DNA from: a bacterium
Lineage (GTDB): Bacteria; Joyebacterota; Joyebacteria; Joyebacterales; Joyebacteraceae
Assembly: GCA_025774245.1 (NCBI GenBank)
Contig: JALGWI010000026.1
Span: 1 to 48,078, forward strand
DNA length: 48,078 nt
Direction of reading: 5' to 3'
The stretch's first letter is position 1; every line of letters starts with the position of its first letter. Below are positions 43,304 through 47,925 of the stretch, in pieces. The notes below the pieces were generated by a model. The model did not search any database, was not told where the DNA came from, and worked only from the letters and a program-made list of their open reading frames with translations. A program made the translations under genes and the position numbers.

Positions 43304-43525
43304 ATGGTAATGAGCCCAAAGAGTCTCATAGTGTTCGCCTGCGGCATCGTGCTCATCGCCGCGGGCTTCTACTCGCTCGCTGCCGGGTCGCTCACGCTGG
43401 CTCCGATCCTTCTGGTGGCCGGGTACTGCGTGGTCATTCCCATGGGGATCATGATGGGTGGCGGTGAGAGGGGACGGTCCGCGCCGGCTGCAGACGAGAC
43501 GCGGGCGAATAGCTCAGCTGGTTAG
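43304..43525 (+). CDS. Small membrane protein of unknown function
   Basis: The 73-residue product has two hydrophobic stretches (about residues 8-27 and 31-51) and a polar C-terminal tail. I do not recognise it. Its last eight codons run into tRNA-Val(UAC), which starts at 43503, so RNA processing of the tRNA would remove the end of the message. GAGGGG precedes the ATG; a second ATG lies at 43310. The gene may be real, but overlap with the tRNA lowers confidence. Confidence 0.5.
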   Translation: MVMSPKSLIVFACGIVLIAAGFYSLAAGSLTLAPILLVAGYCVVIPMGIMMGGGERGRSAPAADETRANSSAG

Positions 43526-43579
43526 AGCACCTGCCTTACAAGCAGGGGGTCACAGGTTCGAGTCCTGTTTCGCCCACCA
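43503..43579 (+). tRNA. tRNA-Val (anticodon UAC)
   Basis: A full cloverleaf can be drawn: acceptor stem GGGCGAA/TTCGCCC, D arm with AGCTCAGCTGGTTAGAGC, anticodon stem CCTGC/GCAGG with loop CTTACAA giving UAC, T arm with GGTTCGAGTCC, and an encoded 3' ACCA. Total 77 bases. Confidence 0.97.
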
Positions 43580-43753: not shown

Positions 43754-44311
43754 ATGAGGTTCTTGCTGTCAGTAGTGCTCGTCGCGCTTCTCGCGACGAC
43801 GGCGTTTGCGGGAGAGAATCCCGACATCATGATCGGTCTCGATTCGACGACCGGCCCGCCGACCGAGGTGAACAGGGTCGACCCGGCCGTGAACGGCACC
43901 TTCGACGTCTACGTGGTCTTCAAGAACTTCGGCGCCGGCGGCGGTATGCTCGGCGCGGCGTTCATGTTCGACAGGGACTTCACCGGCTTCAAGCTGACCC
44001 AGACGAACCTGCTTCCGGGTCTCGACTTCGGCGACGTCGAGGTGGACGGCTGGGCCATCACGGCCGGCGCCGAGTGCCAGTACCCGGACGGCAACGGATA
44101 CCTCGTGGCTGCCACGTGCCAGTACATGTACCTCGGCACGCCGGGGACGATTACCGTCATCAACCACCCGGTCGATGACAACAGCGTGGCCGACTGCCCG
44201 AACGATCTCGACTTCTGGACGGTCTACAGCAACTTCGGCGTTGGCATGGATGCGCCCACTAGCCCCGTCGAGGCGTCGACGTGGGGCTCGATCAAGAGCC
44301 TCTACCGCTAG
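43754..44311 (+). CDS. Secreted protein of unknown family, paralogue 1 (185 residues)
   Basis: An N-terminal signal peptide (LLSVVLVALLATTAFA) is followed by a beta-rich domain shared with three neighbours: GGGMLGAAFMFDR, LTQTNLLPGLDFGDVE, DGWAITAG and YLGTPGTITV. It ends in STWGSIKSLYR. It has only three cysteines (AEC, ATC, ADC) against seven or eight in the others, and lacks the Cys-containing loop near the C-terminus, so it is the most divergent copy. Function unknown; the fold could resemble cohesin-type sandwiches, but I cannot show that. AAGGAGGGG precedes the ATG. The 174 bases between tRNA and gene contain a 17-codon mini-ORF at 43640. Confidence 0.8.
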   Translation: MRFLLSVVLVALLATTAFAGENPDIMIGLDSTTGPPTEVNRVDPAVNGTFDVYVVFKNFGAGGGMLGAAFMFDRDFTGFKLTQTNLLPGLDFGDVEVDGWAITAGAECQYPDGNGYLVAATCQYMYLGTPGTITVINHPVDDNSVADCPNDLDFWTVYSNFGVGMDAPTSPVEASTWGSIKSLYR

Positions 44312-44376
44312 CGCGTACGAGTCGGAGGCAGCACCATCTGCGACACTTGTCACGCGACGGAGACCCCTGATTTCCC

Positions 44377-44405
44377 TTGCGTGTCAGGACCGGATATCGT
44401 ATAAT
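44377..44405 (+). promoter_or_regulatory. Sigma-70-like promoter of a possible small RNA
   Basis: TTGCGT (44377-44382) and TATAAT (44400-44405) with a 17-base spacer. The sequence into the -35, GATTTCCCTTGCG, is repeated exactly at the promoter starting at 44595. A terminator lies only 22 bases beyond the -10. Confidence 0.6.
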
Positions 44406-44411
44406 ACGGAT

Positions 44412-44469
44412 GTGAGGTATCGAATTCGGGCTCGCCCCCCCACGATGCCATCGGGTGAGCCCGTTTTTT
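44412..44469 (+). ncRNA. Candidate small RNA, about 58 bases
   Basis: The segment between a consensus promoter (44377-44405) and an intrinsic terminator (44427-44469) would yield a short RNA with no open frame. The start is estimated as seven bases after TATAAT. It may be an independent small RNA or a terminated leader. Alternatively, the hairpin only ends paralogue 1 and the promoter match is chance. Confidence 0.4.
44427..44469 (+). terminator. Intrinsic terminator
   Basis: CGGGCTC (44427-44433) pairs with GAGCCCG (44457-44463), with further C/G pairing inside, followed by six T residues (44464-44469). Confidence 0.85.
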
Positions 44470-44594
44470 GGCCCCAGGGCGGGCGCAAAGCCCCACAGGA
44501 CTGGTTCTTGCATCGTTAGGCAAGCATGTCGGTGGGGAGGTGGCCCGGAGCCGGGGGCTCATGGAGGTTCCCGAGTAGACAGGCCGGATTTCCC

Positions 44595-44624
44595 TTGCGG
44601 AATACAGGGAACCTGTGTTATAAT
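44595..44624 (+). promoter_or_regulatory. Sigma-70-like promoter of dockerin-like protein gene
   Basis: TTGCGG (44595-44600) and TATAAT (44619-44624) with an 18-base spacer. Preceded by the same GATTTCCCTTGCG as the promoter 218 bases upstream. The predicted leader is about 170 bases long. Confidence 0.65.
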
Positions 44625-44800
44625 GCTGTGAAGGTGGACTAGGTCCGAGAACGGACACCACAACAGCGACCGGACATCTAACCGGAAAGGAGGTCCGACG
44701 CAGCGAGTATGTTCCTGCCGGGTCTTCGGTACGATACACGAAGCCCGCAGGCGTCAGCGCGATCCCAGAGCGTCTGAGTTGTCTGTAAGGAGGTAGGAAA

Positions 44801-45355
44801 ATGTCAAGAACGCTTGCCGGTGTGCTGGCAGGACTGCTGGTGCTCGCCGCGACGGGCGTCGCTACCGCAGGCATTCCGGACCCCGATCTTTCCTTTGCGG
44901 ATATTGGGCCGGATCCTGGTATGACGACGTGCCCTGCGGGCGACGGACCGCTCTACGAGTACATCAAGGTGACCGCGAAGAGGGCTGACACGACCCCGAT
45001 CGAGGGGATTCCGTACAACAGCTTCTTCTTCACGGTGACCGGTGGCGACTGCACCTTCCACCATGTCGATGCGGAGACCGATCTCAATGGCGAGATCCGT
45101 TTCGAGGTGCAGGGTGCCGAGACCATCCAGGGCACCATCACGATCGGTGTGCAGATCTACACCGTGGTGCTGACGGACAGTGACACCCTGGATTGCATCA
45201 CCTTCGACAACAACCTTGATGACCAGGTGAGTCTGCAGGACTTCACGCTCTTCTCGGGTGGCTACGGTGGCACCGACCCGCTCCTCGACTACAACTGGGA
45301 CGGAAACGTAGCTCTGCAGGACTTCACGCTGTTCTCGGCTCACTACGGTCACTAG
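44801..45355 (+). CDS. Secreted protein with C-terminal dockerin-like doublet
   Basis: The 184-residue protein has a signal peptide (LAGLLVLAATGVATA), a central beta-rich Ig-like part (about 30-130), and two C-terminal repeats of dockerin type: FDNNLDDQVSLQDFTLFSGG and DYNWDGNVALQDFTLFSAHY, each with a Ca-binding loop followed by a helix. Dockerins dock onto cohesin domains in extracellular complexes. No classical cohesin is seen, but four unknown secreted proteins flank it. It lacks the WGxIKxLY ending of those proteins. TAAGGAGGT precedes the ATG. Confidence 0.85.
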   Translation: MSRTLAGVLAGLLVLAATGVATAGIPDPDLSFADIGPDPGMTTCPAGDGPLYEYIKVTAKRADTTPIEGIPYNSFFFTVTGGDCTFHHVDAETDLNGEIRFEVQGAETIQGTITIGVQIYTVVLTDSDTLDCITFDNNLDDQVSLQDFTLFSGGYGGTDPLLDYNWDGNVALQDFTLFSAHYGH

Positions 45356-45562
45356 TTGACCGGCGGTCTGTACGGGCGTGGTTGTGTGGCGTTGATGGTG
45401 TGCACGACGCTTTCGTTCTGTTTCCCGACTCAGGCTTTTGATGGAACGAATGTGACCAACGTCCATGGGGGAGGTGGTGCCTCAGCAAATACTTACCGCT
45501 TGTGGTGCTGTACTGCTCTGTGACCGTTTAACTCATCTTTGTGACGTTTGAGGAGACAGGAA

Positions 45563-46165
45563 ATGAAGAGACTTCTTGTTGTTCTCCTGATCGCCGCGCT
45601 TGCGGTTCCTGCTCTCGCGGGTGAGAACGAGCTGCTGGCGATCTTCCTGAGTGCCGACGACGATACGGGCGACGACGTCGTCAACGAGGTCTGCCCCGGC
45701 ATCAACGAGACGTTCAACGTCTACGTCTGCTTTGATCGCTTCGGCGACGGCGGCGGCATGCTCGGTGCTGCTTTCATGTTCAACAGGACCTTTGGCGGCT
45801 TCAAGCTGACCCAGATGAACCTGCTTCCGGGCCTCGATTTCGGCGACGTCGAGACCGACGGCTGGGCCATCACGGCTGGCGCCAACTGCCAGTACCCGGA
45901 CGCCAACGGCGTCCTCGTGGCTGCCACGTGCCAGTACCTGTACCTGGGCACGCCCGGTACGATCACGGTTCTTCCGCATCCGATCGATGCCAACAGCGCT
46001 GCTGACTGCCAGAACGAGCTCGACTTCTGGTGCGTCGCTTCGGTGCTGTCGCACGGCGCTGCGGGCGGCTTCGGCGCCTGCGCGGCTCCGCCGGACGGCG
46101 ACTGCGAGCCCGAGAGCCCGGTCGAGGATTCCACCTGGGGTGGCATCAAGGCTCTCTATCGATAG
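45563..46165 (+). CDS. Secreted protein of unknown family, paralogue 2 (200 residues)
   Basis: Signal peptide (LLVVLLIAALAVPALA), then the shared domain with eight cysteines (NEVC, VYVC, ANC, ATC, ADC, FWC, GAC, GDC) and the ending STWGGIKALYR. It is closest to paralogue 4, with long stretches of near-identical DNA, so these arose by recent duplication. GAGGAG lies upstream of the ATG. The 207 bases before it are less GC-rich and show no clear promoter. Function unknown. Confidence 0.85.
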   Translation: MKRLLVVLLIAALAVPALAGENELLAIFLSADDDTGDDVVNEVCPGINETFNVYVCFDRFGDGGGMLGAAFMFNRTFGGFKLTQMNLLPGLDFGDVETDGWAITAGANCQYPDANGVLVAATCQYLYLGTPGTITVLPHPIDANSAADCQNELDFWCVASVLSHGAAGGFGACAAPPDGDCEPESPVEDSTWGGIKALYR

Positions 46166-46192
46166 CCGATCGTTCAGTGCTGCGACACGAGG

Positions 46193-46227
46193 AAGGGGCG
46201 GGCCCTCAGGGCATCGCCCCTTTCTTC
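46193..46227 (+). terminator. Intrinsic terminator after paralogue 2
   Basis: AAGGGGCG (46193-46200) pairs with CGCCCCTT (46215-46222) around a 14-base loop that can pair further, followed by TTCTTCTT. Confidence 0.75.
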
Positions 46228-46353
46228 TTGCAGGGGCGGAGGGTCAGGCGGGCCCGGGCCGTGGAGGTCCGGTGAGGCACCGCCGATCCGGGTGAGCGTG
46301 CGGGTCGTGAGACAGAGATTCACGGGACCGCCTCCAGGAAGGGGGATGGTGTC

Positions 46354-46956
46354 GTGAGACGGTTCCTCATCGCTGTGGTAGTGGCGGCGCTGGCGGTCCC
46401 GGCGTTCGCGATCGAGAACCAGAACTTGACGATCTTCCTCGATACCGACGGAGACACCTCCACCGAACCGGTGAACGAGGTGTGCCCGCCCACGAACGGC
46501 ACGTTCGACGTCTTCGTCTGCTTCGGTCAGTTCGGGGACGGCGGCGGCATGCTCGGCGCCGCCTTCGGGTTCGAGCGGACCTTCACGGGGTACAAGCTCA
46601 CGCAGACGAACCTCCTCGGCGGCCTCGACTTCGGCGACGTCGAGGTGGACGGCTGGGCCATCACGGCGGGAGCGAACTGCCAGTACCCCGACGCGACCGG
46701 GATCCTCGTGGCCGCCCAGGTGAGCTACCTCTACCTCGGTGTGCCGGGGAGCATCTCGGTCGTCCCGCACCCGATCGACCTCAACAGCGCGGCCGACTGC
46801 CTGAACGAGCTCGACTTCTGGTGCGTCCCCTCGGTCAACTCCCACGGTCTCTCCGGCAACTTCGGTGTCTGCACCGTCGCCCCCGACGGCAACTGCGAGC
46901 CGACCGTGCCGACGGAGGACAGGAGCTGGGGCTCCATCAAGGCTCTCTACCACTAG
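46354..46956 (+). CDS. Secreted protein of unknown family, paralogue 3 (200 residues)
   Basis: It starts at GTG 46354 after AGGAAGGGGG. Signal peptide (LIAVVVAALAVPAFA) and the shared domain, ending in RSWGSIKALYH. Seven cysteines: the ATC position is Ser here (AAQVSYLYLG), suggesting the ANC partner is left unpaired or pairs differently. Codon choice is more GC-rich than in paralogues 2 and 4, which fits an older split. Function unknown. Confidence 0.83.
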   Translation: MRRFLIAVVVAALAVPAFAIENQNLTIFLDTDGDTSTEPVNEVCPPTNGTFDVFVCFGQFGDGGGMLGAAFGFERTFTGYKLTQTNLLGGLDFGDVEVDGWAITAGANCQYPDATGILVAAQVSYLYLGVPGSISVVPHPIDLNSAADCLNELDFWCVPSVNSHGLSGNFGVCTVAPDGNCEPTVPTEDRSWGSIKALYH

Positions 46957-47322
46957 ACACCGCCCCGGCGAGATCCGAACCGACGTTCCAAAGCAGGGCG
47001 CGCCTCCCCGCGTCGTTGACGCGTACGCAGACCGGCAGCGGCCGCCGCGGCCGCGTGCTCGACGTGTTGCACAGGTTGCGACGTACGGGATGCGGCGGAA
47101 AGGCCGGCGGCTTGCGCTCTGCCGGCGCGCTTGGCAAAAAGGGGCTTTGCAGGAATCCCTCCGTGTGCTACATCAGGTGTCGAAGTCCCGTCGGTGGATG
47201 GACTGCTCCGAACGAGCGGCGTCCATGCGGACGCCCTGAATGCGAAGGGGGGAGCGATCGACCGATTGAGAGGGATGCGATGTGTGTTGAGCAGGCTACC
47301 GGCCCCAACGGAGGGTGATGTG
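46957..47322 (+). other. Intergenic region between paralogues 3 and 4
   Basis: No gene or terminator is recognisable in these 366 bases. A weak promoter-like pair, TTGCAG (47147-47152) and TACATC (47169-47174) with a 16-base spacer, is the only candidate signal for paralogue 4. Confidence 0.4.
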
Positions 47323-47925
47323 ATGAGACACTTGCTCGTCGTGCTGCTCGTGGCGGCGCTTGCCGTGTCGGTGACCGCCGAGGAGAACCCGAATCTCGCG
47401 ATCTTCCTCAGTGCCGACGACGATACTGCTAACGACGTCGTCAACGAGGTCTGCCCGAACATCAACGACACGTTCAACGTCTACGTCTGCTTTGACCGGT
47501 TCGGCGAGGGCGGCGGCATGCTGGGCGCTGCCTTCATGTTCGACAGGACCTTCGGCGGCTTCAAGCTGACCCAGACGAACCTGCTTCCGGGTCTCGACTT
47601 CGGCGACGTCGAGACGGACGGCTGGGCCATCACGGCCGGTGCGGAGTGCCAGTTCCCGGACGCCAACGGCGTCCTCATTGCTGCCACGTGCCAGTACCTG
47701 TACCTGGGCACGCCGGGAACGATCACGATCCTCCCGCACCCGATCGATGCCAACAGCGCAGCCGACTGCCTGAATGAGCTCGACTTCTGGTGCGTCGCTT
47801 CGGTGCTGTCGCACGAGTCCGAGGGTGGATTCGGCGCCTGCGCGGATCCGCCTGACGGCAACTGCGAGCCGCTGAGTCCGGTGGAGGAGGCAACCTGGGG
47901 GACCATCAAGTCGTTCTACAGGTAG
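47323..47925 (+). CDS. Secreted protein of unknown family, paralogue 4 (200 residues)
   Basis: Signal peptide (LLVVLLVAALAVSVTA), the shared domain with eight cysteines in the same places as paralogue 2, and the ending ATWGTIKSFYR. GGAGGGTG precedes ATG 47323; a longer frame upstream translates to unrelated sequence. Function unknown. Confidence 0.85.
   Translation: MRHLLVVLLVAALAVSVTAEENPNLAIFLSADDDTANDVVNEVCPNINDTFNVYVCFDRFGEGGGMLGAAFMFDRTFGGFKLTQTNLLPGLDFGDVETDGWAITAGAECQFPDANGVLIAATCQYLYLGTPGTITILPHPIDANSAADCLNELDFWCVASVLSHESEGGFGACADPPDGNCEPLSPVEEATWGTIKSFYR

Follow-up and report, generated by a model that had tools for sequence, protein, structure and literature searches.

The window analysed here (the whole 48,078-nucleotide stretch of contig JALGWI010000026.1) carries a tandem array of four secreted paralogues with a shared C-terminal ending, and we found this ending to be part of a 16-residue tag that closes dozens of otherwise unrelated proteins in the same genome and recurs in several other phyla. 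The ending is almost certainly a sorting tag. A sequence-only reading of the window had inferred a sorting or anchoring function from the four copies, and this is supported by the presence of the tag genome-wide, in multiple phyla and on unrelated proteins, as well as by its location outside the final strand of the domain that precedes it. For the proposal as a whole, we regard it as rather probable that the 16-residue signal is recognized at the outer membrane, with the type IX secretion system (T9SS) as the best-supported machinery, and that the cargo reaches the cell surface.

In the proposed scheme, a Sec signal peptide would bring the tagged proteins to the periplasm, the 16-residue signal at the end of a flexible linker would be recognized at the outer membrane, and the protein would be moved to the cell surface and probably held there. 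The tag would be a short substitute for the canonical type A C-terminal domain (CTD) of T9SS cargo, and in many lineages it may be collected by a PorV-family shuttle barrel of its own. Passage through T9SS appears fairly likely from the genomic associations described below, and the reading of the tag by a dedicated PorV-type shuttle is possible, if somewhat doubtful.

The tag and its genomic distribution

The consensus obtained from 62 tags of the window's own genome and 96 foreign tags is [ST]-P-V-E-x-x-[ST]-W-G-x-[IV]-K-[AG]-[LM]-Y-R-COOH, in which W and K are invariant in the own and foreign sets alike and Y and R are almost invariant. The ending described in the sequence-only reading is therefore real but incomplete, since a conserved SPVE, placed at a fixed distance of two residues before [ST]W, belongs to the signal too. 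The last ten residues are basic, with hydrophobic residues at the W/I/L/Y positions. When the tag core and its stop codon were written as a degenerate DNA pattern, 57 matches were obtained in the 3.23-Mb genome and none with the reversed pattern, hence the tag is not a product of chance. All 20 genomes sampled from the window's phylum (its own genome and 19 relatives, representing eight genera of one family) contained 19 to 59 tags each, with no match in the reversed control. Protein homology to the paralogue domain at E below 1e-8 was confined to about ten places in the own genome, the weaker matches falling mostly on the C-terminal end, which shows that the tag sits on otherwise unrelated proteins. 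The genome-wide search that the sequence-only reading had called for thus bore out its expectation, with the ending present on unrelated proteins across the genome and in several phyla.

In the open frames of the loci analysed, the core motif has 201 distinct occurrences, of which 192 leave a single residue between the Y and the C-terminus and one is internal. This ratio is partly due to selection because many loci were chosen for a tag match at a stop codon; in a six-frame reading of the window without any stop-codon condition, the motif occurs four times and is always terminal. Variants extended past the R were observed at two loci (..GLYRNK and ..ALYRP; L222:2599-4326 and L071:5461-6249), and one or two additional residues may be tolerated at this position. 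The helical moment of the tag (0.47 versus 0.35 for shuffled sequences) was discarded as evidence, as the strand moment is equally high. Searches of the tagged proteins against NCBIfam 20.0 and Pfam returned no model of the tag, and none of 5.4 million open papers searched for tag strings was found to describe it.

In the genome collection, the tag was identified in at least 112 stretches from Eisenbacteria, Effluviviaceae, Krumholzibacteriia, Coatesbacteria, Aegiribacteria, and a Zixibacteria metagenome-assembled genome (MAG), as well as, among the matches listed, in a MAG named Gemmatimonadota DHS20C21. Whole-genome counts for 28 genomes drawn from the listed matches gave 2 to 58 tags each, with all 28 bearing the tag. 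In one Eisenbacteria phylum, 40 of the 47 genomes covered have 1 to 23 tags each and seven have none.

The tagged array of the window and its cohesin-like domain

The four paralogues (185, 200, 200, and 200 residues, each with a signal peptide) were located as the sequence-only reading had described them, all on the plus strand, and their endings STWGSIKSLYR, STWGGIKALYR, RSWGSIKALYH, and ATWGTIKSFYR were read as quoted. Its statement that most of them carry seven or eight cysteines holds for three paralogues and fails for the first one, the counts being 3, 8, 7, and 8. Each of the four open reading frames (ORFs) has a purine-rich stretch upstream and a clear Sec signal peptide, and the other window paralogues are 67–84% identical to the protein encoded at 45563. 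A fifth gene, absent from the earlier reading, lies inside the array between paralogues 1 and 2. The features of the array are as follows.

43754–44311, plus strand: tagged paralogue 1 (185 residues; signal peptide, cohesin-like domain, shorter linker, 3 cysteines)
44261–44308, plus strand: 16-residue C-terminal tag of paralogue 1, SPVEASTWGSIKSLYR
44801–45355, plus strand: dockerin-like protein (signal peptide, weak Big_1-like region, two EF-hand-like repeats)
45191–45352, plus strand: dockerin-like repeats FDNNLDDQVSLQDFTLFSGGYG and LDYNWDGNVALQDFTLFSAHYG
45563–46165, plus strand: tagged paralogue 2 (200 residues, 8 cysteines; AlphaFold model m88b737d78c57)
46115–46162, plus strand: 16-residue C-terminal tag of paralogue 2, SPVEDSTWGGIKALYR (low-confidence helix, residues 186–199)
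46354–46956, plus strand: tagged paralogue 3 (200 residues, GTG start, 7 cysteines)
46906–46953, plus strand: 16-residue tag of paralogue 3, VPTEDRSWGSIKALYH, with V, T, and H in place of S, V, and R
47323–47925, plus strand: tagged paralogue 4 (200 residues, 8 cysteines)
47875–47922, plus strand: 16-residue C-terminal tag of paralogue 4, SPVEEATWGTIKSFYR

The AlphaFold model, built with 17 family members, contains a beta-sandwich at residues ~26–158 (pLDDT mostly 80–93) followed by a disordered linker, and the tag lies within a predicted helix at residues 186–199 with pLDDT below 50. The possibility that the ending is simply the last strand of the domain was rejected on the basis of this structure prediction, which had been suggested in the sequence-only reading and which places the tag in a separate, low-confidence helix beyond the linker. 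In a Foldseek search of the PDB, cohesins made up nearly all of the top 30 matches (best E 2.9e-4), and the highest TM-score among them, 0.68 by target length, was obtained for 2vo8. No Pfam match at E<=1 was found for the domain, cohesin (PF00963) included, and a comparison of the paralogue profile with PDB sequences produced only noise and no cohesin. As the similarity is seen by fold and is invisible to sequence searches, we limit the claim to a cohesin-like fold and do not call the domain a cohesin. The remark in the earlier reading that no named family is known with these features stands with respect to sequence libraries; by fold, the domain is cohesin-like.

The four window paralogues are clearly homologous, as would be expected if the shared ending had spread inside a single protein family by inheritance or gene conversion, without any role in sorting. 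This explanation was rejected and deserves next to no credence, because the genome-wide tag matches fall on many unrelated Pfam families and in several phyla, and because whole-protein identity in the cohesin-like family drops to 32–38% while the tag remains nearly fixed.

Cargo proteins and replacement of other sorting signals

Sec-type signal peptides were predicted by a crude score in approximately 54 of 59 complete tagged ORFs; with a uniform choice of start codons, they were found in 41 of 52 tagged proteins, 18 of 20 CTD proteins, and 52 of 201 other ORFs. The Pfam domains of the tagged proteins include beta-helix, NosD, PMP repeat, InhA-like MAM, lamin-tail (LTD), CBM20, pullulanase X25, PKD, copper-binding, Cleaved_Adhesin, and others. 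The NCBIfam matches of 63 tagged proteins comprise the choice-of-anchor V, J, and R families, MXAN_6652/MYXO-CTERM, and the rhombosortase- and myxosortase-dependent M36 families, and include neither TIGR04183 (T9SS type A) nor TIGR04131 (T9SS type B). In other taxa, the choice-of-anchor, MYXO-CTERM, and rhombosortase- or myxosortase-dependent families bear other sorting signals. The tag and other sorting tags thus replace one another on shared domain families, both on the choice-of-anchor families and on cohesin-like relatives, where a T9SS CTD takes its place. Three relatives of the paralogue domain (C15:51088, C15:53847, and C99:31091) form the N-terminal parts of 896-, 1659-, and 964-residue proteins that end in FlgD_ig, the T9SS type A kind of ending (..SGVYVYTL...RRRMLLLK or similar). 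Since members of the cohesin-like family close either in the 16-mer or in a T9SS CTD, both signals occupy the same place on the same family.

A cytoplasmic role, either as a targeting peptide for encapsulin or microcompartment cargo or as a degradation tag, would suit a short C-terminal peptide with a predicted helix, and microcompartment genes have been reported in Effluviviacota, which is probably the window's phylum (PMC11323493). This role is contradicted by the Sec signal peptides and the extracellular folds of the tagged proteins, and we consider it scarcely credible. A text search of the Effluviviacota genome paper found secretion mentioned for flavins only, and no mention of sorting, outer membrane, dockerin, or C-terminal features (PMC11323493).

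T9SS machinery in the tag-bearing genomes

The translocon protein SprA (TIGR04189) was detected in 19 of the 20 genomes of the window's phylum, including 13 out of 13 good ones, and in none of 14 control genomes. It exceeded the cut-off in 24 of the 28 tag-bearing genomes from the collection-wide scan and in 43 of the 47 Eisenbacteria genomes, including six of the seven without the tag. At the thresholds used, SprA was missing from G018/G044 (57% complete), G013/G030 (78%), G037, G053, and G062. Based on its presence in tag-less Eisenbacteria, SprA was rejected as the gene that tracks the tag: T9SS accompanies the tag and does not predict it.

The type A CTD works with SprA, the PorV shuttle, and PorU. 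In the window's own genome, a PorU match of 405.8 bits (cut-off 420) is closely followed by PorV (222 bits; cut-off 90). Two further barrels of this family were seen, one of them PorV2-like and adjacent to a C25 gene, the other near a tagged gene. The large secreted proteins of this genome, including most of the C25 proteins examined, end in a type A-like CTD. The gingipain/PorU-like family Peptidase_C25 is expanded to 8–30 copies per genome in all 20 genomes of the phylum (G000–G019), and some C25 genes adjoin tagged genes.

The C25 expansion in these tag-bearing genomes and the position of some C25 genes next to tagged ones are also compatible with a sortase-type processing signal, in which a dedicated protease or transpeptidase, for example a Peptidase_C25, would cut near SPVE and attach a glycolipid to the protein. 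PorU normally cleaves T9SS cargo, and this alternative, which draws further on the fixed spacing of SPVE before the WGxIKxLYR part, could operate together with the T9SS route; cleavage in that route, if any, may likewise fall near SPVE. Most of the C25 proteins examined are themselves CTD cargo, which speaks against such an activity, and from sequence features we judge it improbable.

A PorV paralogue that tracks the tag

In a PorV-family tree of 130 sequences from 19 genomes, one fully supported clade (IQ-TREE 100/100) is present in all eight tag-bearing and in none of the six tag-less Eisenbacteria sampled. Applied to the 47 Eisenbacteria, a profile of this clade identified the tag-tracking PorV in 32 of the 40 genomes with the tag and in none of the seven without it. 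Eight of the 47 genomes are those where the clade was first seen, and the cut between orthologue and paralogue (256 versus 231 bits) was placed by eye in a two-humped score list. Another PorV paralogue persists in six of the seven tag-less genomes, and PorV copy number was rejected as a predictor of the tag, as 5–11 copies occur in tag-bearing and tag-less genomes alike. Four or more tags were found in 27 of the 32 genomes with the tag-tracking PorV versus 2 of the 15 without it (Fisher p=4.7e-6; Mann-Whitney p=9.5e-7), although these p-values ignore shared ancestry. Strong matches were also obtained in G020, G035, G036, and G040 and weaker ones in Aegiribacteria. The tag-tracking PorV is encoded in a cassette with a TonB-dependent receptor, an NHL-repeat protein, and a CTD protein that resembles PorZ at its end.

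Several observations weigh against the T9SS route with a dedicated shuttle. The presence of SprA is permissive and not diagnostic, given its retention in the tag-less Eisenbacteria. The association with PorV involves only about two independent co-losses, in G078 and in the group G079/80/85–87; the universal PorV of G078 nests among the universal PorVs of tag-rich relatives. The tag-tracking PorV is missing from six Eisenbacteria genomes with one to three tags, as well as from G037 (four tags) and G077 (seven tags). Moreover, a profile search did not find it in the window's phylum, where the best matches scored 171–186 bits. For the window's own genome, this absence is the chief weakness of the argument. 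Those matches include a tandem PorV pair adjoining a CTD protein with a PorZ-like end; the pair was rejected as a tag-specific PorV of this phylum, since IQ-TREE groups it with the universal PorV and it lies in a paralogous cassette. The tag lacks CTD motifs B or D and has no beta-sandwich. The short T9SS CTDs described so far have 40–51 residues (PMC11969387), and a 16-residue signal would thus be new. Finally, the dockerin-like neighbour in the window has neither the tag nor a T9SS CTD and shows no export signal beyond Sec.

Among the rival explanations, the strongest has the tag retain proteins once they have been exported, whatever the route. The proteins would cross by a pathway other than T9SS or remain in the periplasm, where, or at the surface, the 16-mer would hold them by binding to a fixed receptor (for example, an outer-membrane protein, lipopolysaccharide, or an S-layer), as with short docking peptides. 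The basic last ten residues with their hydrophobic W/I/L/Y positions suit a docking peptide, and the Sec-only dockerin-like partner, the failure of SprA to predict the tag, and the lack of the tag-tracking PorV in the window's phylum fit a retention tag as well. We nevertheless consider retention unlikely: the modules found in the tagged cargo are typically extracellular, within a single domain family the tag takes the place of a T9SS CTD, and its co-occurring gene in Eisenbacteria encodes a T9SS-type shuttle. In favour of the T9SS route there is also a precedent in F. johnsoniae, in which separate shuttles read separate T9SS signal classes at one translocon (PMC12618676). That the tag represents a third class of T9SS signal, a non-domain 16-mer present in dozens of copies per genome in several candidate phyla and often served by its own PorV-type shuttle cassette, is a serious possibility, if a little short of probable.

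Comparison with known sorting signals

Like the tag, the T9SS type A CTD (TIGR04183/FlgD_ig-like) is an extreme C-terminal signal on Sec-exported surface proteins, and it co-occurs with the tag in these genomes and also closes proteins with relatives of the cohesin-like domain. It is a beta-sandwich of ~70–100 residues with motifs B, D (GxY), and E, whereas the tag has 16 residues, no such motifs, a low-confidence helix, and no TIGR04183 match. In Prevotella intermedia, short T9SS CTDs with predicted PorV binding occur beside the long form in one genome and in this respect resemble the tag, but they have 40–51 residues in three strands and keep motifs B, D, and E (PMC11969387). The type B CTD (TIGR04131) with PorP/SprF offers the example of a second signal class that has its own shuttle barrel and uses the same SprA translocon; type B CTDs comprise 150–235 residues and are paired with cognate PorP/SprF barrels (PMC12618676), whereas the tag is a single sequence shared by dozens of proteins and co-occurs with a barrel of the PorV family. 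The PEP-CTERM/exosortase, GlyGly-CTERM/rhombosortase, and MYXO-CTERM/myxosortase systems share with it the many-to-one use of a short tag on choice-of-anchor proteins (PMC1569441, PMC3237569, PMC11980579). Their signals consist of a motif, a transmembrane helix, and a basic end, while the tag, ending in ..IK[AG][LM]YR, contains no hydrophobic stretch or transmembrane helix as in the PEP-CTERM, LPXTG, and GlyGly-CTERM types.

C-terminal sorting tags reveal much of the surface proteome of uncultured organisms at one stroke; with the present one, the number of labelled proteins per genome is 19–59 in the phylum of the window and reaches 23 in Eisenbacteria. If the tag is fed into T9SS, the translocon would accept a peptide of just 16 residues as well as folded domains of 40–235 residues, which bears on recognition by SprA and PorV; the T9SS signals encountered in the literature searched are all far larger, and cohesin modules would be displayed on a Gram-negative cell surface. 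A minimal signal of this kind would make a practical fusion tag, and the co-occurrence with PorV renders the T9SS-shuttle hypothesis directly testable.

The dockerin-like neighbour and other genes near tagged loci

The product of the fifth gene of the array (44801–45355) contains, downstream of a signal peptide and a weak Big_1-like region, two D-x-N-x-D-x-x-V-x3-D repeats that resemble the calcium loop of type I dockerins, D-x-N-x-D-G-x-[VI]-x3-D; the first repeat has D in place of G. The repeats are clearer in the orthologue from L094 (DYNDDGTIDPLDF / DFDWNGTINPLDF). Orthologues of this gene adjoin tagged cohesin-like genes at four loci (L089, L094, L141, and L205), several of which, like the window, have a mltG-like gene and a small membrane protein gene upstream. 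Pfam gave no dockerin match for the protein at E<=1, the NCBIfam model dockerin_GC scored 9.4 bits (below its cut-off of 29), and an AlphaFold model from four sequences (pLDDT 48) was too poor for a fold search. The cohesin-like and dockerin-like genes probably constitute a conserved surface cohesin–dockerin set, as the dockerin-like repeats and the synteny suggest, in which the tag would display the four cohesin-like modules of the window for binding of the co-encoded dockerin-like protein. Known cohesin–dockerin pairs are comparable in that a cohesin-like fold is accompanied here by a syntenic protein with two dockerin-like repeats. They differ in that no Pfam cohesin or dockerin match and no PDB sequence match was obtained here, the phyla are different, no cellulosome is seen, and display would depend on the tag and not on an S-layer homology (SLH) domain or sortase.

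Paralogous conserved cassettes, with a TonB-dependent receptor, a PorV-family barrel, and a CTD protein ending in a PorZ-like region, were observed at L410, L411, L413, L417, L412, L419, and L420 and are a possible T9SS attachment module outside Bacteroidota. Next to one tagged gene (G000:C60:24732), a TorC-like multihaem stretch and a porin O/P-like barrel are united in a single ORF (L219:5119-6375), which may encode a fused porin–cytochrome conduit. Directly upstream of the window array, a tRNA-Val (tac) gene is located at 43503–43579 on the plus strand; a minus-strand ORF overlapping its end is probably spurious. The small membrane protein gene of the window lies at 43304–43525. A second array in the own genome consists of four tandem tagged paralogues of 356–362 residues by the chosen starts (L070:6165-10796), and in the Eisenbacteria genome G064 four tandem tagged proteins (L415:8854-14339) precede a fifth ORF, which lacks the tag, and a small membrane protein similar to that of the window.

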